A stretch of 64,000 bases of DNA from a virus, in the IMG/VR virus record IMGVR_UViG_3300024259_000010, positions 124,001 to 188,000 of that record. The stretch is one strand, 5' to 3'. Made by a program: the position numbers and the translations under genes. Of the stretch, positions 13,343 through 37,211 are shown in pieces. Position 1 is the first letter of the stretch, and each line of letters opens with the position of its first letter. A model generated the notes under the pieces. It was not told the origin of the DNA and did not search any database. It was given only the letters and a program-made list of their open reading frames with translations.

Positions 13343-14188
13343 ATGAAAAATAAAAGTCTAGCATTCTCTGTTCAGACCATGCAAACTGTTCTCGGTAATG
13401 GACTAAAGTCTATTAAGCCAGACAAAGATGGTGTTTATAAAGGTGTACCATTAGCTGTAATTGGCAAACCATCTAGAAACAATGTTGTATACGATCAGAA
13501 TAGCTTTGTTGAATCTATCACTAATCCTAATACACGATTCTATAAGAGTTTAGTAGAAGGTGGTCTTGAAGGCGAGTGGGGTCATCCCATGAACATTGGT
13601 TTAAATAATAAAGATGCTATCATGCGTACCATGCAGATCGATGGTTCGAGAGTATCACATTACTTCACTAAAGTATATGCTAAGAAAACCAAAGATGGTG
13701 AGTACTACGTTGTATATGGTGACATTGTTCCTTTCGGACCTAATGGTCAGTACTTAGCTGCATCATTCCAAGACACTAAAAGAAATACTGCATTCTCTTT
13801 ACGCTCACTGACAACTGATCCTGAATCAATTGGTGGTGGTTTATGCCGTAAGAAGATCCTTGCATTAATTACTTTCGATGCTGTTAATACCCCTGGGTAT
13901 CAAGAAGCATGTAAATGCTTTATGGATACTGGCGAAGAATCATTTAAGTATGAACTTACTGAAGAGCAGATCGTATCTGCTGGTCTAGAAGACTTTGCTA
14001 CAGTTGAATGTGCTGAAGTTATTGGACAAGAAACTGTATCACATCAGTCTTTATTAGATTTACTAGAAACTGATAGCGTCACGCTTGCTACAAAAGAAAT
14101 CTCTGTTGTTGGAAACTTTGATAAGAAAACTGGTAGTATCCGTACTGGCACTTCTAATATCTCTGCGTTCCATGGTCTGTTCCGTTAA
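13343..14188 (+). CDS. Prohead maturation protease, S80/gp21-like serine protease
   Basis: 281 aa. A GEWGHP motif puts a histidine at 81, an AFSLRS motif puts a serine at 152, and TFDAVNTPG puts an aspartate at 179. Order and spacing match the His-Ser-Asp arrangement of T4 gp21-type prohead core proteases and the jumbo-phage S80 family. The enzyme would cleave scaffold and head proteins inside the prohead. Residues 227-230 are IGQE, the same type of site seen in the capsid candidate (VGQE), so the 51-residue tail may be removed by autocleavage. An AAAGGAA site and a late promoter precede it; the ClpP-like gene follows after 20 nt. Confidence 0.8.
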   Translation: MKNKSLAFSVQTMQTVLGNGLKSIKPDKDGVYKGVPLAVIGKPSRNNVVYDQNSFVESITNPNTRFYKSLVEGGLEGEWGHPMNIGLNNKDAIMRTMQIDGSRVSHYFTKVYAKKTKDGEYYVVYGDIVPFGPNGQYLAASFQDTKRNTAFSLRSLTTDPESIGGGLCRKKILALITFDAVNTPGYQEACKCFMDTGEESFKYELTEEQIVSAGLEDFATVECAEVIGQETVSHQSLLDLLETDSVTLATKEISVVGNFDKKTGSIRTGTSNISAFHGLFR

Positions 14189-14208
14189 TATCAAATAGGT
14201 TTAAACAT

Positions 14209-14784
14209 ATGTTTAATAAATTACGATTAATGAAAAGAAAGTCTGTGAATTATCCGACGATCTCTCATCATAAAGATGAAGATGGAAAGTCAACATGGAT
14301 AATTTCCATTCGTGGAATTATTGGAGGACAAGAATTATATACTGATGTATGTAATATCTTACTAACAGCATCTGAAGATGATACTGTTATCATTACTTTA
14401 AATACTCCAGGGGGAGTGGTCTTTACTGGGCTAGCAATTATTCATGCTATGCAGAAAAGTAGAGCAACCGTAGTAACGAGAGTTATCGGAATGGCTGCAT
14501 CATGTGGAGCGTTAATCTGGTCATATGGACAAAAGTTAGAAATGTGTCCATTCTCTAGATTAATGTTTCACGCATCTTCTGGGGGATTCATGGGTAAGAC
14601 CCGTGATCAGAGAGATTATGCTGAAGTCACCGAAACTCTTATGAAGAGTATAAATCAACGTGCTTTAACTAAGAACATCATTACTGCAAAACAGTTTGAA
14701 GATATGTTTGAAGCACGTCAAGATGTATACTTAAATTCTAAGGATTTAGAAAACAATAACGTGGAGTTCAACTATGCATCTTAA
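14209..14784 (+). CDS. ClpP/SppA-fold serine protease
   Basis: 191 aa. Residues 65-70 carry the NTPGG turn of ClpP-type proteases, residues 94-101 are GMAASCGA with the nucleophile Ser98, LMFHASSGG supplies His121, and ARQDVYLNS supplies the likely Asp172, so the triad is complete. No signal peptide is present, so it acts in the cytoplasm or inside the prohead. Placement between the prohead protease and terminase suggests a role in head morphogenesis, as in lambda-like phages where a ClpP-fold protease matures the portal. It overlaps the next gene, a dead paralogue, by 11 nt. A weak AGG site precedes the ATG. Confidence 0.8.
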   Translation: MFNKLRLMKRKSVNYPTISHHKDEDGKSTWIISIRGIIGGQELYTDVCNILLTASEDDTVIITLNTPGGVVFTGLAIIHAMQKSRATVVTRVIGMAASCGALIWSYGQKLEMCPFSRLMFHASSGGFMGKTRDQRDYAEVTETLMKSINQRALTKNIITAKQFEDMFEARQDVYLNSKDLENNNVEFNYAS

Positions 14785-15580
14785 TTTAAATAAATTGAAT
14801 TCTGAAGGTAAAGCTGATATAATTGAACCATCACAAGAAGATCTGTTCTCAATCGAAGCAAATAATTCTCATGAAGATGAGCCTAAGCTAGATGTTGAAA
14901 TGGGTTTATCTGGAAACCTAGTTACAGTTGAAACAATGGAAGAAGAAGAGATCGTAGTAACACCTGTGATCGGAGTAGAAAACTTAGAGGATGAAATTCC
15001 TTTAGTATCTGCACCTGGTCCACAAGGTCTACCTACAGAACCTAAAGAGAAAGAACCTAATACTGTTTATGTTCTGACTCCAACTAAAGTACATGCTTAT
15101 CTACATGGTAAGTGTTCTGAATCTGTAGATACATTAATTCACTTATTATCGCAAGCGACTGAAGATACTGAAGCATATATTTCATATTGTTATCCAATGA
15201 TTGATATCTATGATGCATTAGAATTAGTTGGTGTAATCGGAGCTACTAAAGCAAAAGTTACTTTAGATATTATTGGTGTATCGAGTGTTGTAGATTTATT
15301 ACTATTGACGAATGAAGACTGTACTATTAATCTAGCACAGAATCTTATCGTCACTGGTATTAAAGAAGTTAGCTTTGGCTCTCTTTATAATCTAGAAGAA
15401 TCTTTGATCGCAACTAAGAATTATCAGGAGCTAGTATATACCTCACTGAAAGAGAATGGAATCTTATCGGATGATGAGATAGATACTCTATCTGCAAAAG
15501 GTGGTATGTTATATCTCGATAAGACAATAGTTGATTCACGTTCTAAGAAAACAACACCTGTTGAAGAACTCTCTGAATAA
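14774..15580 (+). CDS. ClpP-fold pseudoprotease paralogue with acidic N-terminal extension
   Basis: 268 aa. The first 95 residues are acidic and probably disordered, with IGVE at 66-69 resembling the presumed maturation site. From residue 98 the order of strands and helices follows the upstream ClpP-like protein: IIGVSSVVDLLLL corresponds to VIGMAASCGALIW, so the nucleophile becomes Val172; LIVTGIK corresponds to LMFHASS, so His becomes Thr194; the Asp position is lost in AKGGMLYLDK. It therefore cannot be an active serine protease. It starts inside the active gene (11-nt overlap), so the pair is translationally coupled and may form mixed rings. The alignment was done by eye. Confidence 0.65.
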   Translation: MHLNLNKLNSEGKADIIEPSQEDLFSIEANNSHEDEPKLDVEMGLSGNLVTVETMEEEEIVVTPVIGVENLEDEIPLVSAPGPQGLPTEPKEKEPNTVYVLTPTKVHAYLHGKCSESVDTLIHLLSQATEDTEAYISYCYPMIDIYDALELVGVIGATKAKVTLDIIGVSSVVDLLLLTNEDCTINLAQNLIVTGIKEVSFGSLYNLEESLIATKNYQELVYTSLKENGILSDDEIDTLSAKGGMLYLDKTIVDSRSKKTTPVEELSE

Positions 15581-15586
15581 ATATCA

Positions 15587-15620
15587 TATAGCAGTGTAGG
15601 CATTTGCCTACACTGCTATA
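15587..15620 (+). terminator. Hairpin terminator
   Basis: Near-perfect 16-bp stem (15587-15602 with 15605-15620), closing just after the pseudoprotease stop and ending the head-protease operon. It is followed by TATTTA rather than a long T run. Confidence 0.7.
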
Positions 15621-15674
15621 TATTTACCCAAGTACACTATAGTATACTATTAAACAGATAAGGAGAAATCCTAT

Positions 15675-17771
15675 ATGATTTTATTCAAGAAGGATATTTT
15701 AACAAATAAATGTATTATCGACACTAAGACTAAGAATGTAAGTTTTCTTAAGATGTCTATGGTTTTAAAAAAACTAGGTGTTAAAAATAATTTATTTATG
15801 TTAGTATTATGTGACGAGACATTGCAAGGTATTGATCCACATAGTACTACATTGACAGAGAATCAACAATTACGTGTAGCTTATGAAGCTAAGATTAACC
15901 CGTGGTATTTCTTTCGAGAAGTAATTCGAATACCATCACAGGGTGGAGAGCCAGTTCGATACAAATTGAACAGAGCTAACTTAGCATTGATATGGTTATA
16001 CTTAAACAATGTTGATACATACTTAACTATGCCACGACAGATTGGTAAAACAGTTGGTGTTATTTCTATAACATCATACTTCATGTATGTATTAGGTCGT
16101 AACTCAAACGTAGCTATGTTTGCAAAAGATGCAGACTTGAGAACGGAGAACGTTAGACGTCTAAAGGATTCCAAAGAAGGACTCCCTCCATATATGGTAC
16201 AAGAAGGTTCGGCATATAACACTAATAACCAAGAGACAGTGGAATACAAACCACATAATACAAAGTACATTACTTTTGTTGCACAGTCTGATAAGAAGCG
16301 TGCAGCTAAACAAGGTCGTGGTGAATCTTTTGTATGGTCGCACTGGGATGAGTTAGCATTCTATATTAATAATAAACTTTCATATCCTTCAGCTATTGCA
16401 GCTTCGGAAACTGTTGGTGAATTAGCAAGAGACCAAGGACTACCTTGTGCAACATTGATTACTACAACGGCTGGATTCACATCTACTGCCGAAGGTAAGT
16501 ATGCACATAGTTTCAAATCTCAAGCATTACGTTTCTCTGAGAAACTTTATGATACAGAAGACAATGAATCTCTCAAAGAGATTGTTGAGAACTCTTCCGG
16601 TAACAACTTTGTGTATGTAGAATATAGTTACAAACAGTTAGGCAAAGATGAGAAATGGTTTAAGAATGTTACTCGTAATAAGCCACCTGAAGTGATATGT
16701 ATTGACTACTTAAATAAGTGGGTTCACGGCTCCGGAGAGTCTATCATATCAAAGCGTTTAATCGACTTACTGGAGAAGAACATAGAAGAACCGGTTTCAA
16801 TAACTATCGATAACGGAATAGTTATGCGATGGTTTGCAGAACAGACGGATCTAGATTCACCTATGATTAAAAATATTCCATTTATCTTATCTAGTGATAC
16901 ATCAGATAATATTGGAAAAGACTTTACAACTCTAGTATTAACTAATCCAAAAGATATGGCCGTTGTTATGACATGTCGATGTAATCAATCTAATATGGTA
17001 CTTGTTGCTAATGCTATATTTAATCTAATGCGCCGGTTCCCGAACTCAGTATTTATTCCTGAGAGAAATAGAGCTGCTACATTGATTGATGTTATTGTAC
17101 ATATGATAACAACCAAAACTGATTGGGACCCATTCAAACGTATATTCAATTACTACTTCCAAGATAAACATGACACTGTTAATGTTAGAAGTTTGGATAT
17201 TGAATTAGGTTCAGTTCGTAAGATGTTTGGTTTCAAGACTACAGGTGCTGAGAATTCTCGTAAGTTTATTTACAGTAAAGTTTTGAACACTACTATTGAA
17301 CGGAACTATATGCGTATCTTTGATAAAACTATTGTTGATGAGATATGTGACCTTGTAGTTCGTGATGGACGTATTGATCATTCCATGAGTGGTAACGATG
17401 ATACACTTATTGCATACTTAATAGGTTGTTGGTTCATCATGTATGGTAAGCATGTATATCTATATGGGATAGATTCTAATGATATATTATCTGTAAAAGA
17501 TGATGAAGATGCAGAAGCTGCTGAAAACACTGGTGCTATTAAAAACAGAATTGTTTATCTACAAGATAAATTATCATCTGGTGAAGTATCAGAGTTTATG
17601 AGACATGCATTTGAATCAGAACTTAAAGAATTAAAAACTTTAATACCTGAGGATGATGGATTATCATCAGACGTTGTTAGTATGGCACAGGTGGATAAAG
17701 TTAAATCTGTTGAATACAGAACACTTGACACAGGTGGATTATCTAATAAATTAGAATGTTTATTTAATTAA
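15675..17771 (+). CDS. terL: Terminase large subunit (DNA-packaging motor)
   Basis: 698 aa. The ATPase has an adenine-side region then the P-loop PRQIGKTVG (residues 120-128, Lys125), coupled to a Walker B block at 219-226 (FVWSHWDE, Asp225-Glu226). The C-terminal RNase H-like nuclease shows its acidic residues in FILSSDTSDNIGKDFTTL, IPERNRAA and SMSGNDDTLIAY. Motor and nuclease package and cut the concatemeric genome into the prohead portal. The length is close to that of other jumbo-phage terminases. AAGGAG precedes the ATG; a hairpin follows the stop, so it is a single-gene unit. No small terminase is recognisable beside it. Confidence 0.9.
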   Translation: MILFKKDILTNKCIIDTKTKNVSFLKMSMVLKKLGVKNNLFMLVLCDETLQGIDPHSTTLTENQQLRVAYEAKINPWYFFREVIRIPSQGGEPVRYKLNRANLALIWLYLNNVDTYLTMPRQIGKTVGVISITSYFMYVLGRNSNVAMFAKDADLRTENVRRLKDSKEGLPPYMVQEGSAYNTNNQETVEYKPHNTKYITFVAQSDKKRAAKQGRGESFVWSHWDELAFYINNKLSYPSAIAASETVGELARDQGLPCATLITTTAGFTSTAEGKYAHSFKSQALRFSEKLYDTEDNESLKEIVENSSGNNFVYVEYSYKQLGKDEKWFKNVTRNKPPEVICIDYLNKWVHGSGESIISKRLIDLLEKNIEEPVSITIDNGIVMRWFAEQTDLDSPMIKNIPFILSSDTSDNIGKDFTTLVLTNPKDMAVVMTCRCNQSNMVLVANAIFNLMRRFPNSVFIPERNRAATLIDVIVHMITTKTDWDPFKRIFNYYFQDKHDTVNVRSLDIELGSVRKMFGFKTTGAENSRKFIYSKVLNTTIERNYMRIFDKTIVDEICDLVVRDGRIDHSMSGNDDTLIAYLIGCWFIMYGKHVYLYGIDSNDILSVKDDEDAEAAENTGAIKNRIVYLQDKLSSGEVSEFMRHAFESELKELKTLIPEDDGLSSDVVSMAQVDKVKSVEYRTLDTGGLSNKLECLFN

Positions 17772-17779
17772 ATAAAGTT

Positions 17780-17808
17780 AGGTGTACTAGGATTAACCTA
17801 GTACACCT
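17780..17808 (+). terminator. Hairpin terminator after terL
   Basis: A 12-bp stem (17780-17791 with 17797-17808), loop ATTAA, followed by TTCTTTATAT. Confidence 0.75.
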
Positions 17809-17828
17809 TTCTTTATATATTTCAAAAC

Positions 17829-17837
17829 CATATTATG
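17829..17837 (+). promoter_or_regulatory. Variant late-type promoter CATATTATG
   Basis: It lies 30 nt before the ATG at 17867. The same nonamer occurs at 52066 (plus) and 31539 (minus) at similar distances from starts, keeping the TATG end of the late motif. Confidence 0.45.
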
Positions 17838-17866
17838 AACTAAATTTAATAATGTAAAAGGAAACT

Positions 17867-19117: not shown

Positions 19118-19118
19118 T

Positions 19119-20054
19119 ATGAAAATTGGAATAGAAGAAGCTACTACTGATAGTGTGTCTTTAGATATTGCTTACAATGCTTTAGTAGAAGATGCTGAGG
19201 CAGGATTTGAAGGAATGTTTGTTCAAGAGTTGTTCAATGGTGAACCATTCTCACATGCATTCCTAGCAACATTGATCCGTTTAGAAACACGTTTAAATAG
19301 AAACATAAATCAGTATGCAGAGATAACTGATAAAGTTGAAAAGAAATTAATGGAAAGTAAGTCTATTCATTTATTACGGCATAAAGATACCATAGAATTG
19401 ATCGATGGACTTGAAGCTCTTCAGGATGTGATATTAGACATTACTGGTAAGGGTACTAACTTGTCACAGAAAGACATTGTTACTGCGTTGAAAAAGCTTG
19501 GTATCGATGGTGGTAAAAATCCATATGATAGAACTAATTGGACATTAGCTTCTAGTGGAGCTGCTGTACGACTAGGCGCTGTACTACTAGGCTTTGGTGT
19601 AACAAGTGGTAATCCATTTGTATTCGTTGCTGGTGCAGTTGCTATTGCTGCTGGTAAAACAAAAAGAAGTATCCGACAATATTCTATTCAGGATAGAGGT
19701 TGGGATTTAGATAAACTTACTGATGCCAATAAGCGTACACTTTCTCTTATTGAAAATCATAAGAAGGTTATAGCTAAAATTAAAACTGCTGCTCATACTA
19801 ATGTAAGTGACAATGTTGCTGAACAAAAGAAAGATGAGTTTAAAGCTGCTGGTATAATCATGAAAAAGGTTATCAAGTTCTACAAGAAAACAATTGCGGT
19901 TGTTGCACGTGGTCTTGGTAATGCTAATATTGATAAAATTGAATTCAAACGTGGTATGAAGGATAGTCTTCTTAATAGAGATTCAGATCTTGGTGAGAAG
20001 AAAGAAGAAACTTCAGACCTCTATGATGATGGTGACGGTGGTTCTGACTGGTAA
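19119..20054 (+). CDS. Candidate internal or ejected head protein with hydrophobic hairpin (311 aa)
   Basis: The N-terminus begins MKIGIEEA, the same (I/V)GxE-type start seen in several other candidate virion proteins here. Residues about 150-185 form two hydrophobic segments (AAVRLGAVLLGFGV and FVFVAGAVAIAAG) separated by a polar turn, suited to membrane insertion. The C-terminus is acidic (DLYDDGDGGSDW). The central part is helical and charged. No enzyme motif is visible. The features fit an internal head protein delivered with the DNA, or a membrane-active morphogenesis factor. The gene starts one base after the 17867 gene. Confidence 0.5.
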   Translation: MKIGIEEATTDSVSLDIAYNALVEDAEAGFEGMFVQELFNGEPFSHAFLATLIRLETRLNRNINQYAEITDKVEKKLMESKSIHLLRHKDTIELIDGLEALQDVILDITGKGTNLSQKDIVTALKKLGIDGGKNPYDRTNWTLASSGAAVRLGAVLLGFGVTSGNPFVFVAGAVAIAAGKTKRSIRQYSIQDRGWDLDKLTDANKRTLSLIENHKKVIAKIKTAAHTNVSDNVAEQKKDEFKAAGIIMKKVIKFYKKTIAVVARGLGNANIDKIEFKRGMKDSLLNRDSDLGEKKEETSDLYDDGDGGSDW

Positions 20055-20059
20055 AATAA

Positions 20060-20096
20060 AAGTAATAGCTAGTGCATTACGCACTAGCTATTACTT
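20060..20096. terminator. Bidirectional hairpin terminator between convergent genes
   Basis: A 16-bp stem (20060-20075 with 20081-20096), loop ATTAC, A-rich on the left and T-rich on the right, between the stops of the 19119 (plus) and 20103 (minus) genes. Confidence 0.75.
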
Positions 20097-20102
20097 TATT
20101 AC

Positions 20103-20855
20103 TTATTTGTCTATATTAGAAAGTGCTTTACCTAATACACCAAATTGTTTTTTAAGATAGTTATGATTATTATGATTAACATTAGCAAACTTTTTATACT
20201 TACTACCACCTTTAGCTAACCACTCATGTGTCTTACTAGTATGTTCATCAACTTTAAACCATAGAAGCGCTAGAGCTTCAATTTTATTTTTGTTACACCA
20301 TCCAGATTTTTTAAGAGTAATTTCAGATCCCATACCTACCATGTTTCCAACTAACTCACCTTTTACGTTAGTATATTTTGATGTACTAAGTTGTAGATTT
20401 AACATAGAGTTCGGACCTTGCGTCAACCCAACTATTTCTTTTTCATTATTAGTACCCACAGCTTCGCCCAATAAACCTACTATATAACTCCAGCTATTGA
20501 CTTCTCTAAGTAAGAGCCTGATTTCTTTAACTGACATTATTTTAAGAGTGGATTTACCATATGTTCTAACAGTGTCTTCATTAGAATAACATAATTTATA
20601 TGCAGCTGGGTTACCAAGAATATCTTTAATATACTTATCCGCAATACTAGATGTAAATCCAATATTTTTTTTAATAAGACTTTGTAGGTCTTCTATTGAG
20701 GATAATATATTTTGGGAAGTAGTATCGACACCTACAGATCTAAGCTCTTCCCCAAAAAGTTGTTCTAGCTGTGGACTCCATCCGTGTGCTTCAATACATT
20801 CTTCAAGATCCATTAAATCCAATAGACTATCTATGATAGTATGTGTATTATTCAT
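20103..20855 (-). CDS. Candidate internal virion protein with IEAHG-x7-LFG motif (250 aa)
   Basis: Family unknown. Residues 21-38 read IEAHG, seven residues, then LFGEEL; the protein at 23568 carries the same pattern with identical spacing. The rest is a mixed, soluble protein of 250 aa without signal peptide. A CIE|A sequence inside the motif resembles a site for the prohead protease, so the first 22 residues may be a propeptide. A GGGG ribosome site precedes the start and the late-type promoter CATTCTATG lies 31 nt upstream. A virion role is inferred from these traits. Confidence 0.5.
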   Translation of the reverse strand: MNNTHTIIDSLLDLMDLEECIEAHGWSPQLEQLFGEELRSVGVDTTSQNILSSIEDLQSLIKKNIGFTSSIADKYIKDILGNPAAYKLCYSNEDTVRTYGKSTLKIMSVKEIRLLLREVNSWSYIVGLLGEAVGTNNEKEIVGLTQGPNSMLNLQLSTSKYTNVKGELVGNMVGMGSEITLKKSGWCNKNKIEALALLWFKVDEHTSKTHEWLAKGGSKYKKFANVNHNNHNYLKKQFGVLGKALSNIDK

Positions 20856-20885
20856 TGATCCCCTTTCATTAAATTATTTACATTT

Positions 20886-20896: not shown

Positions 20897-20938
20897 TAAA
20901 TATTAACGTATTTACCACATACTATACGGGAGATTTAT

Positions 20939-23567: not shown

Positions 23568-24590
23568 TTATTCAGTATCAACTTTAATTGCATCGATTAT
23601 TAAAGTATATGCATTTAACATTCTACTTGCAACTGTGGTCTTTAAAGTCAAATATGTGGATATATATTTAATCACCCTAACTAATTCTCTACCTTCAGAT
23701 TCCGACTCGGAAAGGATTTTAAAAACTTTATCATTACTTAACTTATCCAATTCTTTTTGGTTATCAAGCATATTTTCGATAAATGCTATTGTCTTTTCTA
23801 TTTCAGTTTTTAATTTTAATATATCTGATTTATCTTTAATATATCTAATCCATGAAAATTGTTTATCAGATTGAATATTAGAGTTATTATAATACTCTGT
23901 CGAACTTGATTTTAGATCACGATCTTCTAGAATAGCATTCACATTACTATCATTAACATCAAACTTCCCATTTGTAATATCCTTAAATACGCTCATGATG
24001 CTTTTACTCATAACATATACACTTGTATTATCATTTTCTATTAGATTATTACCTGGAATTGGTATTTTTAAATCACTAATATCATCGACATCTAATTTAT
24101 ATTTTGCATCACTATCTAATTTAATAAGTAGTTTCATCATATCTTCATTAGAAGGTTTACCAAATTTCTTATTAAATTTATTCTGTATTAATTGTTTCTT
24201 TATTTTCATCCAATTAAAAATTTTCTTGAAAAAATTTTTAATTGCTTCAATTACCCTTTTAATAGCTTCCCATATCTTTTTAACAAAATCAGTTACAGCG
24301 CCTTCAAGTGCAATACATACTGCTTTACCATCTCTAGCTTCAAACCCATTAACATCTGTTAATTGGTCTCCGAACAATGAGATGATACTATTATCAATAC
24401 CATGTGCTTCAATAGAACATTTGATATCTTTAATATTTGTATGACTTTCAGTCATATAATCCAGATCTTTCACAGCATCTTCCAGTGCAATGTAAGATTC
24501 TAACATATCAACTTCTCTTGAAAAAACAACAGACATCGGTATAGTTTTTTCACTAAGGGGTTCTATAATTGCATCTAATCCAATATTCAT
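23568..24590 (-). CDS. Candidate internal virion protein with IEAHG-x7-LFG motif and amphipathic segment (340 aa)
   Basis: Family unknown. It starts MNIGLDAI and carries IEAHG at 60-64 and LFGDQL at 72-77. Further on, FEARDGKAVCIALEGAV (83-99) offers other possible protease sites. Residues 100-128 form a strongly basic, aromatic amphipathic run (VKKIWEAIKRVIEAIKNFF) that could bind membranes or DNA. The remaining 200 residues are helical and charged. A late-type promoter lies 35 nt upstream, and AAAAAGGAA precedes the ATG. I infer a processed internal head protein; the amphipathic segment would suit a role during DNA ejection. Confidence 0.5.
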   Translation of the reverse strand: MNIGLDAIIEPLSEKTIPMSVVFSREVDMLESYIALEDAVKDLDYMTESHTNIKDIKCSIEAHGIDNSIISLFGDQLTDVNGFEARDGKAVCIALEGAVTDFVKKIWEAIKRVIEAIKNFFKKIFNWMKIKKQLIQNKFNKKFGKPSNEDMMKLLIKLDSDAKYKLDVDDISDLKIPIPGNNLIENDNTSVYVMSKSIMSVFKDITNGKFDVNDSNVNAILEDRDLKSSSTEYYNNSNIQSDKQFSWIRYIKDKSDILKLKTEIEKTIAFIENMLDNQKELDKLSNDKVFKILSESESEGRELVRVIKYISTYLTLKTTVASRMLNAYTLIIDAIKVDTE

Positions 24591-25186: not shown

Positions 25187-25544
25187 TCTTAGCTTCTTTT
25201 TCCATTTTAGCTAAGCGTGTATAATAATCGGGAAATTCAGTAAGGTGATCCAATGCTATCTTCTCAGCAATAAGAGGATTAGTAGTGTGTTCCATTTCTA
25301 CTTCTATTCCCATCTTAACTTGAGTTTTATTATGCCCGCCATAATCTTTACCCTTGGATTTACCTTCATTGAGAAAGGAGCACAATACTTCTTTAACAAT
25401 TACATTAAAAGTTTTAACATCAATACTTATAGTATCTACAAATTTCTTAATAGCGTCATCTTTAGGATATGGATTTTCCATGATCCATTTAATAACTTTA
25501 TCCTTCTTATCACTATTGTTTAATATCTCTAAACCAATTTTCAT
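25173..25544 (-). CDS. DUF5661-like protein (123 aa)
   Basis: 123 aa. The second half, with QVKMGIEVEMEHT, AEKIALDHLTE and FPDYYTRLAKME, matches my memory of the DUF5661 pattern (EHT, ALDHL, PDYYTRL), a short family common in large phages and in bacteria, of unknown function. The N-terminus MKIGLEIL resembles the other IGxE starts in this window. A GGGGGGA ribosome site lies 4 nt before the ATG. It is first of a three-gene minus-strand operon; its promoter must lie in the 25545-25830 stretch. Confidence 0.6.
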   Translation of the reverse strand: MKIGLEILNNSDKKDKVIKWIMENPYPKDDAIKKFVDTISIDVKTFNVIVKEVLCSFLNEGKSKGKDYGGHNKTQVKMGIEVEMEHTTNPLIAEKIALDHLTEFPDYYTRLAKMEKEAKNEEK

Positions 25545-27365: not shown

Positions 27366-28142
27366 ATGAAGTTAAGAATAGATAAACTATTTGGTAAAAA
27401 TATTAAATATATGGATTTCCCAAAAAGTGAATTAGAATCATATAGAAAAAGATTAAGCAAAGGGTTGCCTACATATACAACAAGAATATCTGCTGAACAA
27501 GGTAAATATATTGCTAATGAGATAGTTAACTCACCATTTGGCCGAATTAAAATAAATCAAGTCACTAGCTATAAGGCTGGTTCTAAACATCCATTTGAAA
27601 AAGAGTTGAGTCCAGGACAACTGGCTTCTATAAAAGGACCATTTGATATTATTAGATTCTCTCTTGTAAATGTATTTATTAAACATGGGCCTGCTAAATG
27701 GCTTAAGCTTGCACAGTTTAATTTTGACTCCACTGTTTGGAAGATTAAAGATCAACATAAATTAGATCTTAAAAAAGTAATATTGGTTATTTCAGATGTA
27801 CCTGTTGATAAAGATGGTAAGAAGTCATATGATCATATAAATGACTCACTTGGATCAGCTGCTAGTAAAGCAGTCCCACCATTTATAGTTATTCCATCTG
27901 AAGCTAAATTCATTAAGGTGATGAAACATTGGAATATACCAAAAGAAGATAAAGATGATATGCTCCAACATATAATCACACATGAGTTAATACATTTTGT
28001 AGTTGATACATATTCAGATGATAGAATCAAACGTGAAGTTAAAGCGCTTGGTAATTTTGGAACAGTATATTCAAAAGCAGTTAAGAAAGATACTGAGACA
28101 CTTGTTGAGTATCTATCACTTAAATTAATTGGAAAGATTTAA
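27366..28142 (+). CDS. Zinc metallopeptidase-like protein with HELIH motif (258 aa)
   Basis: 258 aa; the motif HELIH at 206-210 is the HExxH metal site of zincins, and a Glu in ETLVEYLSLKL (about 245-248) could be the third ligand. The first 190 residues are unlike any family I know. It could be a SprT-like or metalloprotease domain that cleaves a phage or host protein. No signal peptide, so it would act in the cytoplasm. AAAAGGAA precedes the ATG; the next gene starts one base after its stop. Confidence 0.6.
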   Translation: MKLRIDKLFGKNIKYMDFPKSELESYRKRLSKGLPTYTTRISAEQGKYIANEIVNSPFGRIKINQVTSYKAGSKHPFEKELSPGQLASIKGPFDIIRFSLVNVFIKHGPAKWLKLAQFNFDSTVWKIKDQHKLDLKKVILVISDVPVDKDGKKSYDHINDSLGSAASKAVPPFIVIPSEAKFIKVMKHWNIPKEDKDDMLQHIITHELIHFVVDTYSDDRIKREVKALGNFGTVYSKAVKKDTETLVEYLSLKLIGKI

Positions 28143-28143
28143 A

Positions 28144-29082
28144 ATGAATAATATAGGAATGGAAGCATTAGATGAATATGATCCAAGCAAAGAATGGATT
28201 GGTGTTGATCTAGATAGAACACTTGCTCATTATGAGAAGTGGGTAGATATTTATACTATTGGGGAACCTATCCCTAAGATGGTAAGACGAATCAAACATT
28301 GGATACGTGAAGGTAAGACTGTAAAGATCTTTACTGCACGTGCTAGTCAAGAACCTATTGAAGATATTTCAAAAGCTATTGGAGATTGGACTGAGAAGCA
28401 TATGGGTACTCGACTTGAAGTCACATGTCGTAAAGATATGTACATGACTCAACTCTGGGATGACATTGCAGTTAGAGTAGAAGTGAATACTGGGGAAATT
28501 GATAATTCATTTAAAGAAGAGGATTCCTCTGAAAAGCCTAGTAAATCATATAGTTTCATTGGCGAGAATGTTTTCATTATAGATGTTGAGTCCATTGGTA
28601 TTCACGGTGAACCTTTCTCAGTTGCAGGGGGTATTTATAATATCAAAACAAATAAAGAAATTGAATCATTTGTATTTGGTATTCCTAGAAATATTGCTAA
28701 TGGTTTACCTAGTGATAGAAAATGGGTTGATGAAAATATTCCAGAGTTTGACTACACTAAGTCTTTTGAATCAGTAGATGAAATGTGTCAAGCATTTATG
28801 GAGAAGTGGATAGCTATCAAGAAGCAATACGATGGTATTAATATGTTCGCTGAATGCCCATGGCCAGTAGAAGGTAGATTTTTAAATACTTGTGTTAAAA
28901 CAGATATTTCAAAATATATATTTGAAGGACCATATCCATTATACGATATAACATCTATGATGGCTATAGCTGGATTAGATCCTATGGCTACCTACAAAAG
29001 AATTGAATCAGAAAAACCTGCACACAATCCTTTATCTGATATTAGATTATCATTTAGATTATTATGTCACTCTGTGAAATAA
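28144..29082 (+). CDS. HAD-family hydrolase fused to a DEDDh-type 3'-5' exonuclease
   Basis: 312 aa, two domains. Residues 18-112 look like a HAD phosphatase: VDLDRT gives nucleophile D22 and D24, KIFTAR gives T64, and LWDD gives D106-D107. Residues 140-308 look like a DEDDh exonuclease: IIDVES gives D147 and E149, an Asp lies near 268, and HNPLSD gives H294 and D299. The fusion suggests coupled processing of nucleic acid ends, for example removing a terminal phosphate and then trimming. The ATG at 28144 is preferred over a TTG upstream, since GGAAAG sits before it. The start MNNIGMEAL has the IGxE pattern. Terminator follows. Confidence 0.65.
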   Translation: MNNIGMEALDEYDPSKEWIGVDLDRTLAHYEKWVDIYTIGEPIPKMVRRIKHWIREGKTVKIFTARASQEPIEDISKAIGDWTEKHMGTRLEVTCRKDMYMTQLWDDIAVRVEVNTGEIDNSFKEEDSSEKPSKSYSFIGENVFIIDVESIGIHGEPFSVAGGIYNIKTNKEIESFVFGIPRNIANGLPSDRKWVDENIPEFDYTKSFESVDEMCQAFMEKWIAIKKQYDGINMFAECPWPVEGRFLNTCVKTDISKYIFEGPYPLYDITSMMAIAGLDPMATYKRIESEKPAHNPLSDIRLSFRLLCHSVK

Positions 29083-29701: not shown

Positions 29702-29792
29702 GATTGTTAAAGATCCCACTAAGTACGACATACGGCATGTTTCTAAAACGAGACATAAACTGGGTCTTTTACTTAGTGTTAAAAAGAAGTAA
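29694..29792 (+). CDS. Small basic ORF (32 aa), tentative
   Basis: A 32-aa ORF (MIKIVKDPTKYDIRHVSKTR, then a basic end) overlapping the preceding gene by 8 nt and ending 4 nt before the terminator stem. The overlap and the lysine-rich end suggest it may be translated; nothing supports a function. Confidence 0.35.
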   Translation: MIKIVKDPTKYDIRHVSKTRHKLGLLLSVKKK

Positions 29793-29795
29793 TTC

Positions 29796-29833
29796 AAATA
29801 AGACACCTCCCAATTAAGGGAGGTGTCTTATTT
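29796..29833. terminator. Bidirectional rho-independent terminator
   Basis: A 16-bp stem (29796-29811 with 29818-29833) and loop AATTAA, then seven Ts; it serves the plus-strand genes and the minus-strand gene at 29841. Confidence 0.88.
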
Positions 29834-29840
29834 TTTTATT

Positions 29841-30548: not shown

Positions 30549-30572
30549 ATTAACTCCTATACATTAATATGG

Positions 30573-31496
30573 CTATGCTTGATACAATGATTTGTATACA
30601 TATGCCAGGTTGTGAGACACAGCCATAGTTCTAATTGTTGCTTTACCATAAATGATAAACAAACTATCAAGCTGTTTAATAAAACTAGCAAATGATAATA
30701 AGAACTGTTTGGATGGTACGTAATTAGATTCACCATTTTCAGATTTATCTAAAATGAACTGTGTACAAAGATCAAGTGAATCTTCAACTGCTTGGCATTG
30801 TTTCTCAACCTTGGTAATATCACCAACATAAGGAGAGATAGCTGCCAGTCCATGACGAACTGTTTTTAATTGTTCCATTGAATCAAATAACATCGAGAAT
30901 GGTTTCTTAGATCCGATCGAAGTTGTATCTTTAAATAATTTGCTCAATTTAACATCAGCGACAACAAGGGGTTTGGAAGATCGTTCTAATGAACTATTAG
31001 ACATTCTGACTACCTGTTCATGAGAGTTTGAATTCTTCGATACAGATGATAAGATAGAATCAGTAGTCTTAGATACTAATTCAAGCTGAATGGCTTTTTC
31101 AAAGTTAGTGAAGATCTCAGATGCTAATAACACGATAGTGCTATAGTCACCATTCATCCCAGTTGGGTAATCTACTTTAATGCTTTTAACATCATCGTAG
31201 TTCATCTCTTCTACTTTTTGAATAATTCTTTTTTCTTTAGTTAACCAGATATCAATATCGGTCTTATATTTATTTCTACCTAATTTAAATAGGTTGATAA
31301 TATTGTGTCTAGTATTTCTAACTGTATTAGAGATACCTTCAAAGATTTCTTTTAATGATTCTTCCGATACACCAACATCTGTAGCAGCGTCGATATAACC
31401 ATTTAACACTTCGAACCCTACATGGATTGCTTCAAGCTGGTTATTAATATCATCATCCATTAGCTCAGACATTGTGTCTGCAATTGATAAATTCAT
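30573..31496 (-). CDS. Candidate internal head protein (307 aa)
   Basis: 307 aa, helical, without motif or signal peptide. Near the N-terminus, QLEAIHVGFEVLNGY has VGFE, the same pattern as the probable cleavage site in the capsid candidate, and VSEESLKEIFEG nearby is faintly like the IEAHG-x7-LFG region of two other minus-strand proteins. The start has an AGGAG site at the right distance and the CATATTATG promoter lies 42 nt upstream. Between the late-type genes on the minus strand, an internal or prohead role is plausible, but no direct evidence exists. Confidence 0.5.
   Translation of the reverse strand: MNLSIADTMSELMDDDINNQLEAIHVGFEVLNGYIDAATDVGVSEESLKEIFEGISNTVRNTRHNIINLFKLGRNKYKTDIDIWLTKEKRIIQKVEEMNYDDVKSIKVDYPTGMNGDYSTIVLLASEIFTNFEKAIQLELVSKTTDSILSSVSKNSNSHEQVVRMSNSSLERSSKPLVVADVKLSKLFKDTTSIGSKKPFSMLFDSMEQLKTVRHGLAAISPYVGDITKVEKQCQAVEDSLDLCTQFILDKSENGESNYVPSKQFLLSFASFIKQLDSLFIIYGKATIRTMAVSHNLAYVYKSLYQA
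30581..30591 (-). promoter_or_regulatory. Late-type motif with one mismatch, ATCATTGTATC
   Basis: Inside the last codons of the 30573 gene on the minus strand; 33 nt before the start at 30548. Ten of eleven bases match the sheath promoter motif. Confidence 0.45.
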
Positions 31497-31538
31497 AATA
31501 AACTCCTATTTGTTTTTATTGTATAAATTATTTTATCA

Positions 31539-31547
31539 CATAATATG
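31539..31547 (-). promoter_or_regulatory. Variant late-type promoter CATATTATG
   Basis: Minus strand, 42 nt before the start at 31496; same nonamer as at 17829 and 52066. Confidence 0.45.
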
Positions 31548-31557
31548 TTGTAAAAGT

Positions 31558-31595
31558 ATATAAGTATCTTATGGAAAACCCATAAGATACTTATA
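31558..31595 (-). terminator. Hairpin terminator of the DnaB-like gene
   Basis: A 17-bp stem (31558-31574 with 31579-31595), loop AAAA, just after the 31601 stop on the minus strand; near-perfect, with a T-rich tail on the minus strand. Confidence 0.75.
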
Positions 31596-31600
31596 TATAT

Positions 31601-33118
31601 TTAGAATGCTACAGCACTTGTATCACTTACTCCTTCAGCAGTATCAGAATAAATATCTACAACTGATCTATCTAAACCATTAATATCATCTACGATACCA
31701 ACACCTTCTTCAAATCGTTGTGCAAAGTATTTATGCTTATCTGGTGTAGTCTGGTATTTATGCTTAGCCCATTTAACAGTTAAGTATGATTGACCATTTA
31801 ATCCTTTTTCAATATACATGAATGCAAGGAAGTCCATTTCTTTAACAGCAGATTTACAATCACTTAAATGTGCTGATCCAAACTTCTTAACAACATTGGT
31901 AGTACCAGAGGTTGCTATTCTATCTGCTTCAGTATCTAATTGGAAACCAGTAATGGTCAAGATGTTATTTCTATTTGCATAGTTTTTCATCTTACATAAT
32001 AACTCTTGTCTAAGCTTAGCATTATTATCTTTACCATCTGCAGGTAATGCCATCAATCCAGCATAGTCCAAGATAGCACTATTGATAGTGTACTTATCAG
32101 CTAACTCTTCAAGCAATGCACGGTATTCATTATAACCAAATAGATCACCCTCTTTACGGTAGACTAAAAGTTTATAACCACGTTTGCTATATAGTTCAGC
32201 TGTTTTATTAATGATCTCTGTTTCAGATAGTCCATCGGGTGGCTCACCATAATGTTGAGTATAAGCAGACTTAAACCACATCATCATATTTTCATAGATC
32301 TCATTCTCTAGAGATATGAATACGATAGCGGCTTGTTTACCATTCTCTTTTCTAGGTTCATTATAGAGTGCCATCCATCTGGCGAAGTCCATAAGTATAC
32401 CAGATTTATAATGATGAGATAAAGCAGCGAAACCAATGAACTCTCCTGGAACTGGTCCCTGTGATCTACCAAACATACGATTAAGACTTTGTAGCCCAGT
32501 TGTATATCCAGTATCAATTCTCTTTTTCTTATAAGAATCGAATCCACGTTTTAAACTCTTAGCACATGACATATCAATAAAGTCAACCGATGCATCTTCT
32601 GTACTAGCAGTGTCTTCATAGGTCTTAGTTAGTTCACGGGATCTATCCAATAGTTCATTCATTAATGTTTCTTGGATAACAGTATCACTAGTGTTAATAA
32701 CTTTCTGACTAGTTCTAAATAATTTCTTTAATGAATTATTACCGTTTACCCAGATGATCCATTTTTTTACTTTTTGTTTTAAATGTTTGATAGTGTGATC
32801 TGAAACATTAGCACGCTCTGCAATGAGAGTTCCAATTCGTTCAACAATCTTAGGTGACTGTTTTACCATCGGATGCTGTTCCAGTTTTATTAGTAAGGCT
32901 TCAACGTCAGCCTTGCTGGATAGATTCACATTCTTATTTGTAACATCGGTAATGATGGACATATAGAACTTAGTCAATTCATCGTTTAATGCAGTACCTT
33001 TAGCAACCTCATCATAATAGGTTTTTACAGCACTTGCTACAATGTTTTCTGAATCTAAATCGTTAGAGTATATTGTTAAACAAAGAACTTCTAAGAAAAA
33101 CTCCGGTCCACTCTCCAT
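31601..33118 (-). CDS. DnaB-like replicative helicase
   Basis: 505 aa. N-terminal half is helical without a clear DnaB N-domain. From about residue 205, TGLQSLNRMFG opens the DnaB/RecA-fold core; PGEFIGFAALSHHYKSG holds the P-loop (Lys238-Ser239), SAILDYAGLM is Walker B, and ITGFQLD is the sensor-like region. It should unwind DNA ahead of the phage polymerase. The hydrolysing Glu follows the strand in an altered context. It begins with an AAGGAG site. A TATATTAT early-type motif lies 25 nt upstream, back-to-back with the scaffold-like gene at 33183. Confidence 0.8.
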   Translation of the reverse strand: MESGPEFFLEVLCLTIYSNDLDSENIVASAVKTYYDEVAKGTALNDELTKFYMSIITDVTNKNVNLSSKADVEALLIKLEQHPMVKQSPKIVERIGTLIAERANVSDHTIKHLKQKVKKWIIWVNGNNSLKKLFRTSQKVINTSDTVIQETLMNELLDRSRELTKTYEDTASTEDASVDFIDMSCAKSLKRGFDSYKKKRIDTGYTTGLQSLNRMFGRSQGPVPGEFIGFAALSHHYKSGILMDFARWMALYNEPRKENGKQAAIVFISLENEIYENMMMWFKSAYTQHYGEPPDGLSETEIINKTAELYSKRGYKLLVYRKEGDLFGYNEYRALLEELADKYTINSAILDYAGLMALPADGKDNNAKLRQELLCKMKNYANRNNILTITGFQLDTEADRIATSGTTNVVKKFGSAHLSDCKSAVKEMDFLAFMYIEKGLNGQSYLTVKWAKHKYQTTPDKHKYFAQRFEEGVGIVDDINGLDRSVVDIYSDTAEGVSDTSAVAF

Positions 33119-33142
33119 ATTTATAAACTCCTTATACCGTTA

Positions 33143-33150
33143 TAATATAG
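33143..33150 (-). promoter_or_regulatory. Early-type promoter variant TATATTAT
   Basis: Minus strand, 25 nt before the DnaB start at 33118; one base off TATATTAC. Confidence 0.45.
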
Positions 33151-33182
33151 ATGAAAAAATTAATCAAGAGGTAATAATTCCA

Positions 33183-34838
33183 ATGAATAAAAAAATAATT
33201 TTAAATTGGGCCAAAGATCCTAATGGAAAAAAGAACCAATCTTCTAATTTGAAATTCGATACATGTGATCGTTTAGGTGTACTACTGAGCAAATCAATTT
33301 TGTTTAATTATATCTCAAGTATGTACTACCTTGATAATAACGTTACACAAGAATCTAGAATTTCATATAATGAAGATTCTAAATCTTTTATAAATTTAAT
33401 CTATAAGAGCCTACTCGAAGAATACAAGAGCTTACTAACTTGTAATACAGTTGAACTGGATAGTAATCTACATCCATGTGTCGTTCCTAAGTATGTTATC
33501 TTAGATGATAAACTAGAAATATTAAAACTAGTTGGAGCATTATTGGAAGTATCTAATGCCCCAGTGAGTTTCGATCTTATTAAATATATTGAATATTATG
33601 ATTTTGGTATTGCAAGTGGATTCCTAAAAGAATGGACAAGATTTAAATTAGCTGCAACTCTACAGAATAATACTGAAGAGAAAGATGTAGTTATATATTC
33701 TTCCACGTCCTTTAATATACCATTAGTATATAGACTCGGATACGATATCACATTTAATTTCACAGAATGTTTATGTGGTGAAGTTACATATAGAAAAGTT
33801 ACATATGTTGACCCAATGGCATTTATGTCAGTTGTCAATATCCCTGATGCGAACTCAGATGTATACTTGAGATTAATCGGTAATTTATATATTGGTAATG
33901 ATATGCGTATGAACAACAAATGTTTATATGAATTACTACATATTGTTTTTGTCTCTAATGTTAATTTAGATATAGCTTATAATGAGTTATCTGATTTAAA
34001 TGAAAAAGAAATCAAAGAGCTATTACAATCGTGTTATAGATCTATCTTAGAGTTCTTAAAAACTAAACATGTAAACAGTACTTTAAAGATCGGTAAGATC
34101 ACCAGTGGTATTCTAAATAGAATGGATATTAAAAATATCGAATACTACAATGAAATTCTATCGTTATTCTTACATAAGAAAGATGTGGCCTTCGAACAGT
34201 TATCTGATATCGATGGTGGTCGCTATTGTAAATATTTAGATCCAACTTCTATGTTCTTTGTAGAACCAGATAATATCTGGGCTGCTAAGGAAGATGAAAA
34301 GAAGAAAGCTAAAGACTCTGATGAAGAGGAAGATGATTCTAAAGAGGAAACTCCAAAAGAAGAAGAACCTAAAGAAGAAGAGACCGAAGAAAAGGAAACT
34401 AAAGAAGAATCAGAAGATACATCTGAGGAAAAGGAATCTAAAGAAGAAACTACTTCTGAAGAAACCACCGAAGAAGAACCTTCTGAGGATACGGCTGTAC
34501 CAGAGGATGATGAATCTGATACGGGAGAAGAAGGAGAAGGCGGAGAGGAAACACCCGAAGAAGAAAATGAACCTAATGAAGAGGTTGATTTAAAGAAAGG
34601 CGAATATTCTTTAACTATAATTGATCCAACGACTGTAAAGTTAGACGAGCATTTATACAGAAAAGAGATGGCAATTCTTATTTCTAGAGTGTTAGAAAAC
34701 CCACCAGACAACATGTCGGAAAATAACAAATTGTTCTTATCTGAATTCTACAGACAGTGGTTATATTTAATCTCTGTTGAGGATATTCACAGAATACTTG
34801 AGAATTTTTTAGATAATCTACCAGAAGTAGTGGATTAA
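33183..34838 (+). CDS. Acidic-segment protein, probable prohead scaffold or head protein (551 aa)
   Basis: 551 aa. Residues 1-365 form a structured, helix-rich part; residues about 368-472 are a run of Glu, Asp, Lys, Ser and Thr, among the most acidic stretches in the window; a 75-residue ordered tail follows. The gene sits directly before the capsid candidate, in the place of scaffold genes of large phages, and no fold match is known to me. It could be a scaffold or head core protein cleaved during maturation. ATG 33183 with a GAGGT site is preferred over the upstream frame, which overlaps the DnaB gene. Confidence 0.55.
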   Translation: MNKKIILNWAKDPNGKKNQSSNLKFDTCDRLGVLLSKSILFNYISSMYYLDNNVTQESRISYNEDSKSFINLIYKSLLEEYKSLLTCNTVELDSNLHPCVVPKYVILDDKLEILKLVGALLEVSNAPVSFDLIKYIEYYDFGIASGFLKEWTRFKLAATLQNNTEEKDVVIYSSTSFNIPLVYRLGYDITFNFTECLCGEVTYRKVTYVDPMAFMSVVNIPDANSDVYLRLIGNLYIGNDMRMNNKCLYELLHIVFVSNVNLDIAYNELSDLNEKEIKELLQSCYRSILEFLKTKHVNSTLKIGKITSGILNRMDIKNIEYYNEILSLFLHKKDVAFEQLSDIDGGRYCKYLDPTSMFFVEPDNIWAAKEDEKKKAKDSDEEEDDSKEETPKEEEPKEEETEEKETKEESEDTSEEKESKEETTSEETTEEEPSEDTAVPEDDESDTGEEGEGGEETPEEENEPNEEVDLKKGEYSLTIIDPTTVKLDEHLYRKEMAILISRVLENPPDNMSENNKLFLSEFYRQWLYLISVEDIHRILENFLDNLPEVVD

Positions 34839-34878
34839 TTTTAACATAAAAATGAATGGTATACAATACTTTATGTGT

Positions 34879-34889
34879 ATCATTATATG
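34879..34889 (+). promoter_or_regulatory. Late-type promoter motif ATCATTATATG
   Basis: About 186 nt before the capsid ATG, so it would give a long 5' leader including a GT-rich run (34968-34990). A second TATATG lies closer, near 35046. Confidence 0.55.
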
Positions 34890-35075
34890 CAATATAAAGA
34901 TAAAAAAATTGCATCGATGAAAATTGATGGATGTTTGCAACAGTTTATAGCTAGATCGTGTAATTAACGTGTGTGTGTTGGTGTGTGTGCTCTAGCATTG
35001 AACTTAGTAAATAAAAATTTATTTAATCACTTGCAATTAATAGTTTATATGAATAAATATAAAAAGGATAATATT

Positions 35076-37211
35076 ATGGATATTAACGCATTATTACAAA
35101 ACATCGAAGATGAATGCCGCGAAGGTAAAGTCGGTGGTGATGTTCTTACTACAGCTCGCGTTGTAAGTAAGTCTGTTACTGACTTCCTCTCTACAAATGC
35201 TGTAGGGTCTTCTTCCGAAGATTTCGTCGGACAAACTTTTAACATGAATAAAGCTTTCGGACAAGAGGAACTTGAATCCCTCGGTTCTAGCTCTATTATC
35301 GCACTCGTTGAAGAAGCTGGTGTTCCTACTCATTATAAAGCCGAAGCTGCAGCTACTGTTGCTAACCTGCTTTTCCGTGCTGCTGGTTCTTCTAGTGATT
35401 TCAATGCTGTTGTAAGCTCACAGACCAAACGTGCTGATAACGCCGGTTCGTCTGTTATTGGTATTGAACAGTTCATGCCTGAAGCAGTAAGTAACTTCTA
35501 CGTTGGCCAAGAGGCTTTCGGTGCTACTTCTGACCGTGTAATTTCTGACCTCCAGGTTGCTATTACCGTTAGCTTGCTCAAATGGCATAACACGATTACG
35601 CCTCGCGTACTCTCTAACATCCCTACAACCCAGCCTACGGTTAACTACATCCGTGAAGAACTGACTGTTTACCAACTCGAATCCGATGTTGAAAACGACC
35701 AGTCCCTGATCGACCTGTATGAAAACCCTGCTCTTGTTAGCAATGAACTGACCCGTATCATTCCTTTAGATAAGAATGATGAAGTCGGTGGTGCTGGTGG
35801 AGTCGGTGGAGCTGTTGTTTCAGATGGTATCCTCAATTTCGGCGTCGAAGCACGTCTATTGGAATTAGGTATCAAAGCTGATGTCTATGGATATAATAAA
35901 TATAATCGTACTGATATCGTTGCTGACGGTGTTAAGCTTGACACGATTCATATCAATATTACATCTGATGGTGGAACCACTGAATCGTTCGCTATTTCTA
36001 TCCCTGACAGTCGTTCACGTTTGACTCGTTCTAATAATCAGCTCAGTACTATCCGTACTGCACATATTGATTATACAACGACTCTTAACGTTAAATCTAC
36101 TGCTGACGGTGTTACAACTCCTTCTACTGAGTTGTTAGCGATTCTCGCTGCTACTGGTGATAGCCTGGTTATCAAACTTGAAGCTACTCCACGTATTGAT
36201 ATCCGTGACGGTATGGCTCATTGCTTAGGTGCATTATCTGTATCTGCTGTTTCTGATAACGGTGGCGATGCTGATAGCGCAACTACTGCTGCTCTTACTG
36301 CTTCTGATATCGAACTTAAGGGTTATTCCTTAGACGCTCGTTATGCAGAAGAAAATATGCGCAAGTCGAATATCGCTACTACTACTGAGCGTGCTCAGCT
36401 GGTATACGAAATTCCACAAGGCCGTAACTACCTCTTGGACGTTCCACTGAACGGACCACAGGTTGATCGTTCGCAGAACACTGCTAACCTTTACAATGTA
36501 TGTCGTATTGGTCAAGACAATGTAGTTCTGAAAACTATCTTGGCTGTGCTTGCTGATGTTGGTGTTGCTACTGAAGCATATGACTTAGATCCTACGCGTG
36601 AAAATCGCCCAGGTGCTATGTTCGCTGCAGGTGGACGTGTACGTCCTACGTATATCGCTGATACTCTTAACATGACTGGAATCGATTCGTTCGATGACGC
36701 TCGTCGTCAAGAAGCTATTCAGGGTCGCGTTCTAACGTACCTCAACTCTGTTGTTCAGCAGATCATGGCTACTTCGTTCTTCAGCCAACAGCTTGATGGC
36801 AATAGTGCTCCGACTTTCCGTCTGATCACTGGTCCTCAGATTCTTGGTAACATTGTTGGTGCTAAGCCAGGTGAATTCCAGGTTGAAAACGCTAATGGTG
36901 TTGAACTGACATTGAAGATGACCTCTGGCGTTGTGCTTGAGTGTGTTACTTCTACGTTTGACTTCATGCAAGATAAGATCGTTATCGTGCCGTTCCTCTC
37001 CGGAGATCCTGCATCTGATCTTAACTTTGGACATAACCGTGACTTCGGTACTGTTGTTGGTAGTTATACCCACAATGAAAACGGTGCTGCTGTACAGCGT
37101 CTGCTTGCTAATATCCGTGAGCTTCCTGTTCCTACCAATGTTATTGGTGCGATCTTGGATGTTGAAGGTATTGACATCGCTACGTTCCGTGCTGACATTG
37201 TCACGCCGTAA
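35076..37211 (+). CDS. Major capsid protein candidate (711 aa)
   Basis: 711 aa, close in length to the phiKZ major capsid protein (about 747 aa). GC and codon choice rise sharply over this gene (CGT, GCT, GGT, CTC), typical of the most abundant virion protein. Residues 127-131 (VIGIE) and 142-146 (YVGQE) resemble the maturation site of the prohead protease, so a propeptide of about 146 residues would be removed. The start at 35076 has AAAGG at the right distance; an upstream ORF from 34971 lacks a site. It lies after the scaffold-like gene and ends with a UUCG hairpin. Exact fold not confirmed. Confidence 0.72.
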   Translation: MDINALLQNIEDECREGKVGGDVLTTARVVSKSVTDFLSTNAVGSSSEDFVGQTFNMNKAFGQEELESLGSSSIIALVEEAGVPTHYKAEAAATVANLLFRAAGSSSDFNAVVSSQTKRADNAGSSVIGIEQFMPEAVSNFYVGQEAFGATSDRVISDLQVAITVSLLKWHNTITPRVLSNIPTTQPTVNYIREELTVYQLESDVENDQSLIDLYENPALVSNELTRIIPLDKNDEVGGAGGVGGAVVSDGILNFGVEARLLELGIKADVYGYNKYNRTDIVADGVKLDTIHINITSDGGTTESFAISIPDSRSRLTRSNNQLSTIRTAHIDYTTTLNVKSTADGVTTPSTELLAILAATGDSLVIKLEATPRIDIRDGMAHCLGALSVSAVSDNGGDADSATTAALTASDIELKGYSLDARYAEENMRKSNIATTTERAQLVYEIPQGRNYLLDVPLNGPQVDRSQNTANLYNVCRIGQDNVVLKTILAVLADVGVATEAYDLDPTRENRPGAMFAAGGRVRPTYIADTLNMTGIDSFDDARRQEAIQGRVLTYLNSVVQQIMATSFFSQQLDGNSAPTFRLITGPQILGNIVGAKPGEFQVENANGVELTLKMTSGVVLECVTSTFDFMQDKIVIVPFLSGDPASDLNFGHNRDFGTVVGSYTHNENGAAVQRLLANIRELPVPTNVIGAILDVEGIDIATFRADIVTP

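Follow-up and report, generated by a model that had tools for sequence, protein, structure and literature searches.

What do the short (I/V)GxE motifs that recur among the head genes of the virus record IMGVR_UViG_3300024259_000010 signify? The window analyzed here is a stretch of 64,000 nucleotides, positions 124001-188000 of this 235,833-base record (a 235.8-kb genome), and an initial annotation had proposed that the motifs are a shared maturation cleavage site. We consider it quite likely that the GxE motifs mark substrates of the phage's own S80 (phiKZ gp175-type) prohead protease, which is the best explanation overall. This enzyme would recognize [S/A/G]-x-E and cut behind the Glu; in this phage P3 is Gly, usually preceded by Val, Ile or Leu (P1 is the residue after which the cut falls, i.e., the Glu of the motif, and P3 is the first of its three residues). 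A shared maturation site thus appears to be the correct view for the capsid and the protease, and is likely to hold for some other head proteins. Coordinates are those of the window and refer to the plus strand, unless marked (-) or given as genome positions.

The source genome is that of a divergent phiKZ-related jumbo phage, because its terminase (about 32% identity to the phiKZ terminase), S80 protease and major capsid protein (MCP) all gave phiKZ-type matches, but tblastn found no relative of the MCP in 50,697 phage records. A peptide-pattern search with the MCP alone also returned no relatives. MCP relatives were reached through an alignment of TerL, which led to 48 IMG/VR loci, the nearest by TerL identity being G001 (50%) and G002 (41%). 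Extra capsid and protease loci were added to this set from further searches.

The gene at 13343-14188 encodes a head maturation (prohead) protease of 281 residues, assigned to the Peptidase_S80/phiKZ gp175 family by its matches to PF20034 (E = 1.7e-31; 109.6 bits, with a cut-off of 23.4) and phrog_3014 (E = 2.3e-34). It is 24% identical to the phiKZ protease. The catalytic residues H81, S152 and D179 are invariant in 45 aligned proteases, and S152 aligns with the catalytic S153 of SPN3US. A Foldseek search of the protease model against the PDB gave no usable match.

The motif in the tail of this protein, VIGQE-230 (14018-14032), is a predicted C-terminal self-cleavage site. Column 230 is Glu in 43 of the 45 aligned S80 proteases, the exceptions being Goslar (Leu) and the uncultured phage G020 (His), and P3 was Gly, Ala or Ser in every Glu-type row that was inspected visually. 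In the protease model a confident core (residues 20-190) is followed by a disordered linker (196-234, pLDDT, the per-residue confidence, <50) and then by a mini-domain of low-to-moderate confidence; E230 lies near the end of the linker. Conservation, position and the linked P1 changes described below make E230 well supported as a cleavage site, at which the protease would cut off its own tail. The predicted C-terminal propeptide of 51 residues (14033-14185) is suggested by the mini-domain and by homology to SPN3US, whose protease sheds 64 C-terminal residues (PMC10052503). Self-cleavage of the SPN3US enzyme was proven by mass spectrometry at AQE-203, which the tail site here matches only approximately in position. 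GEE-199 (13931-13939), also within the linker, is a second candidate, closer to the core and near the position of AQE-203. Its column has an aligned Glu in nearly all proteases, and as an [SAG]xE motif it was not retained in pairwise alignments with G001 or G002. The protease may possibly cut at GEE-199 too, and either Glu might be the first to be cut.

The MCP, read from the ATG at 35076 (35076-37211, 711 residues), matched PhiKZ_MCP (PF25620; E = 1.5e-18, 66.7 bits, cut-off 27), and by profile it matched the solved phiKZ-type MCPs 8bfl, 8y6v, 36za and 11bt. The capsid numbering of the initial annotation holds with this start, rather than with the longer GTG open reading frame at 34971. Its suggestion that residue 146 or so is near the site expected for a phiKZ-like propeptide was supported: YVGQE-146 (35499-35513) aligns with ATE-130 of SPN3US, GLE-163 of both phiKZ and PhiPA3, and ALE-161 of 201phi2-1. 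The match to the SPN3US position is exact, and mass spectrometry found ATE-130 to be cut in virions and uncut in protease mutants (PMC7411985, PMC10052503). Among 18 clade MCPs, 17 have [SAG]xE followed by [ASV]FG at this position. By conservation and family position, MCP-146 is well supported as a cleavage site, and we predict that it is the main maturation site, with removal of a propeptide of about 146 residues (35076-35513) and a mature chain beginning at AFG (residue 147). In an AlphaFold2 model the predicted propeptide is mostly helical (helices 3-16, 21-40, 63-80 and 85-118), up to about residue 118. The other capsid site of the initial annotation, VIGIE-131 (35454-35468), lies inside this propeptide and would be only secondary. 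It is [SAG]xE in 7 of the 18 clade MCPs, all of them close relatives, and is probably an extra cut that fragments the propeptide; more than one cut per propeptide also occurs in SPN3US (PMC10052503). Both sites fall in a low-confidence linker (105-157) of the model.

We then compared P1 at the capsid site with P1 at column 230 of the protease, in the 31 phages for which both sequences were at hand. Glu was present at both in 29 of them. In Goslar (L021, L203) both were Leu (MCP LVQL/SYDQ; tail ALAML/SGDS), and in G020 (L137, IMGVR_UViG_3300028045_000001) both were His (MCP PDAH/AFG; tail VRLH/SDI). The chance that the two exceptions in each list would be the same two phages is 1/465, with the identity of the residues not yet counted. 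Column 230 was also the sole column that was fully invariant among 37 Glu-type proteases, yet different in both Goslar and G020. This is good evidence, from alignments, that a single enzyme reads both the capsid and the tail sites, and a change of specificity would be the simplest reading of the P1 switches, a reading that rests on two lineages. The PDB chain 36za, of 583 residues, corresponds exactly to residues 158-740 of the Goslar protein and starts with SYDQ, right after LVQL; a cut behind this Leu would be consistent with that, but the limits of a PDB chain do not prove cleavage. A search for more phages of this kind yielded only near-identical Goslar records as replicates, and none for G020. 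K191 of the protease had at first seemed invariant except in G020, where it is Thr, and was considered a candidate for recognition of P1 Glu; it was dropped because the Glu-type protease L164 carries Ala at this position and the Lys is retained in Goslar.

Inspection of the window protein sequences located all of the motifs where the initial annotation had placed them. However, (I/V)GxE was too narrow as a definition: the rule is the [S/A/G]-x-E of phiKZ/S80 proteases, for which a hydrophobic residue ahead of the Gly is not needed, and the narrower pattern overlooked both GEE-199 in the protease and GQE-64 in the MCP propeptide. Between 13343 and 37211, a region chosen post hoc, there were 8 occurrences of (I/V)GxE compared with 4.0 expected (p = 0.05). 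Because the bare motif is at chance level, relatives were needed to tell which occurrences exceed chance. Two subsets did so, i.e., the sites conserved in the closest relative and a group of genes with N-terminal [ILVM]G[ILVM]E.

Conservation was assessed using reciprocal best hits with G001 and G002. The sites had been picked without sight of these relatives, so that the test was a fair one. All five sites with an aligned G001 homologue (protease 230, MCP 131 and 146, residue 69 of a pseudoprotease-like protein and E29 of the protein encoded at 30573-31496(-)) kept [SAG]xE, compared with 39 of 251 (15.5%) other [SAG]xE sites, a result with a probability of about 9e-5 if the sites are independent. 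In G002, 3/3 were kept, against a background of 12.4%. The pseudoprotease-like protein (14774-15580), which has an acidic N-terminal extension, has a homologue in G001 (78211) and a distant one in G005 (29768), and matched nothing among the Pfam or PHROG profiles. Its site, VIGVE-69 (14966-14980), lies in the extension and aligns with DISIE in G001, while VGFE-29 (31410-31421(-)) of the 30573 protein aligns with TSTE. Judging by these alignments, pseudoprotease E69 and 30573 E29 are likely to be further substrates of the protease among the head proteins. Thus, the proposal of a shared maturation site fares well for MCP-146 and protease E230, which have family-wide conservation, position and linked P1 changes in their favor, and moderately for MCP-131, pseudoprotease E69 and 30573 E29, which are kept in the nearest relatives only. 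LLGIE-21 of the portal, VIGLE-25 of RNA polymerase beta and VIGVE-28 of the head-tail joining protein 188062 were tried as cleavage sites and rejected, as they are not kept cleavable in relatives; these look-alikes therefore serve as negative controls.

The second subset consists of five genes whose products start M-x(1-3)-[ILV]-G-[ILVM]-E. Those in the window encode a 311-residue protein starting MKIGIE-6 (19119-19136), for which no homologue was detected in the relatives compared; a 123-residue DUF5661 protein starting MKIGLE-6 (25527-25544(-)); and a protein starting MNNIGME-7 (28144-28164) at an internal ATG of the open reading frame at 28129. The others, at genome positions 224095 and 225325, show links to internal head proteins: 224095 (MNMKLGLE) matched phiKZ_IP (E = 3.8e-9), and two more phiKZ_IP-family-like proteins are relatives of 225325. 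No link of this kind was seen for 19119, 25544(-) or 28144. When [ILVM]G[ILVM]E was counted within residues 2-12, these 5 genes compared with 0.37 expected, and none of 2000 column shuffles reached 5 (p <= 0.0005). The broader [SAG][ILVMF]E at residues 5-9 occurred 11 times, against 3.3 expected (p = 0.001). The five carriers have plausible ribosome-binding stretches, dissimilar upstream DNA and mostly unrelated bodies. A paralogue of 224095, the protein encoded at 23568-24590(-) (genome 147568), is weakly phiKZ_IP-like (PF12699, E = 2.4e-5, under the cut-off) and starts MNIGLD (24573-24590(-)), the same element with Asp at P1.

Like a T4 capsid-targeting sequence (CTS), the element in these five genes is a short N-terminal sequence, shared by several mostly unrelated proteins, that ends in the protease motif. 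In T4, Alt loses six residues through a cut at ITE-6 (PMC5694885), the leaders of the internal proteins (IPs) target them into the core, and IPIII with Asp at P1 is still targeted while its cutting is blocked (PMC9026906); the last of these would fit MNIGLD. By analogy, the short N-terminal sites suggest a leader like the T4 CTS, an idea absent from the initial annotation. Cleavage at these starts is plausible. That the starts of 19119, 25544(-), 28144, 224095 and 225325 are leaders of 6-8 residues which would direct proteins into the prohead and then be trimmed, we rate at about even odds.

Some neighboring features deserve mention. A ClpP-like gene (14209-14784) lies directly after that for the S80 protease and before the pseudoprotease-like gene. 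As far as is known, it is unusual among phiKZ relatives for a single head cluster to encode both kinds of protease. The internal-protein-like paralogues (window 20103-20855(-) and 23568-24590(-); genome 220779, 224095 and 225325) have a common E-x2-G...LFG-x2-L core. In G002, the proteins 22086(-), 45473 and 108603 have nearly identical starts, MAFPTKV[IV]PFS[EQ]AC. The 28144-29082 protein gave a PHROG match to phosphoheptose isomerase (4.4e-9) and weaker ones to polynucleotide kinase and a DNA polymerase exonuclease subunit; it may combine two enzymatic domains, preceded by the MNNIGME start.

Several results weigh against the interpretation of GxE motifs as protease substrates, or against parts of it. 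Across the genome (I/V)GxE was not enriched, with 29 occurrences observed and 35 expected from shuffles. In an E-INS-i alignment without the clade sequences, VIGIE-131 rather than YVGQE-146 fell in the column of the SPN3US and phiKZ sites, although 146 clearly occupied it once those sequences were added. The large alignment paired column 230 with E234 of SPN3US and not with E203, E234 being one of two further Glu residues that its authors had thought possible sites (PMC5694885). The MCP model was of poor quality (predicted template modeling score, pTM, 0.37). Conserved [SAG]xE columns also exist elsewhere in the MCP, within its mature fold (residues 426, 445 and 610), and conservation of the motif alone is therefore no proof of cutting. 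With regard to the leaders, the strict MxIGxE start was found in none of the relatives checked, the internal-protein relatives in G002 have starts of the form MKFK[VL][EQ], which violate the P3 rule, and the broader N-terminal [SAG]xE test was significant in this phage only, being marginal at most in G004 and G016.

The chance-level frequency of the bare motif would be expected if only the MCP and protease-tail sites were real, all other (I/V)GxE, the N-terminal set included, being due to chance or conserved for other reasons. Failure of relatives to keep the portal, RNA polymerase beta and head-tail joining look-alikes points the same way, as does the location of MGIE-81 of the 25544(-) protein inside its DUF5661 match. 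Against such a restriction stand the five N-terminal genes where 0.37 were expected, whose upstream DNA differs and whose bodies are for the most part unrelated, and the retention of the pseudoprotease and 30573 sites in G001; we think it rather unlikely. The MxIGxE starts might instead be a targeting or core-binding element that need not be cut, each phage of the clade having its own version. The MKFK[VL][EQ] starts in G002, the M-x(0-1)-[KN]-[FY]-D-[IL] starts common to G001 head-region proteins and the Asp at P1 in 147568 are all in keeping with this possibility, which we would place short of an even chance. Support from shared starts is weak, since the pairwise similarity scores fell close to the upper end of the shuffled distribution; moreover, the starts in this phage match the GxE signature of its own predicted cleavage sites, and internal-protein or conserved proteins of G004 and G016 start with [SA]xE at residues 6-8 (MFRSLE, MAFKFSLE, MFKAIE).

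Could the ClpP-like enzyme, rather than the S80 protease, make some of the cuts? Its gene is in the same cluster, and its product matched CLP_protease (PF00574, 3.3e-20) as well as head maturation protease PHROGs. Yet P1 of the MCP site changes together with P1 of the S80 protease's own tail, and the equivalent cuts in SPN3US and phiKZ are made by S80 enzymes (PMC10052503, PMC9026906), so that this seems very improbable. We give similarly little credence to the notion that Glu-146 and Glu-230 are conserved for structure and have nothing to do with cutting. Conservation at the start of the mature MCP does extend past the Glu (EAFG/ESFG), and [SAG]xE columns occur within the mature fold, but ATE-130 of SPN3US is cut in vivo, chain 36za of Goslar starts at the same alignment position, and the two Glu positions, each within a low-confidence linker, change residue in step with one another.

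Under the S80-substrate interpretation, proteolysis of the phiKZ type was already known, and what is added for this phage is the reading of the motif as [S/A/G]xE with Gly favored. The linked P1 switching and the possible short T4-like leader are new leads. The combined proposal, that the P1 specificity of S80 proteases evolves, with capsid and tail sites switching together, and that at least five proteins here carry a T4-like leader of 6-8 residues, is put forward tentatively, at less than even odds. The analysis pinpoints candidate cleavage residues, open to testing, in a jumbo phage whose MCP has no tblastn relative among annotated phage records, and it indicates that the specificity of a prohead protease can be deduced from sequence alone when its tail site is compared with the site in the capsid protein. 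If the short leader is genuine, it predicts which proteins travel inside the head and perhaps enter the host by ejection, and foreign proteins could be loaded into a phiKZ-type head.

Of the known systems, gp245 of the Salmonella phage SPN3US, which recognizes AxE, offers a parallel: it is also an S80 protease that removes its own C-terminus, it cuts the capsid protein at the aligned ATE-130, and it makes several cuts per propeptide with Val favored at P4 (PMC10052503). It differs in having Ala at P3, where all of the main candidate sites here have Gly, in N-terminal propeptides of 20-254 residues, compared with 6-8 predicted for the leader set, and in a proven self-cleavage at 203, nearer the core than E230. 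The proteases phiKZ gp175 and 201phi2-1 gp268 (S/A-x-E) and their capsid proteins belong to the same families as those studied here, and about 19 head proteins are cleaved there (PMC10052503). VGLE of the phiKZ MCP, at residue 163, falls in the site column, although the protease is 24% identical and the window MCP had no tblastn match in the phage collection. In T4, gp21 acts on the CTS of IPI-III and Alt at L/I-x-E, so that P3 is Leu or Ile rather than Gly, and targeting is a prediction from sequence in the present phage. Nevertheless, gp21 also cuts after Glu in a three-residue motif, and ITE-6 of Alt has the same geometry as MKIGIE-6, in a system where short N-termini target proteins to the core (PMC5694885, PMC9026906).

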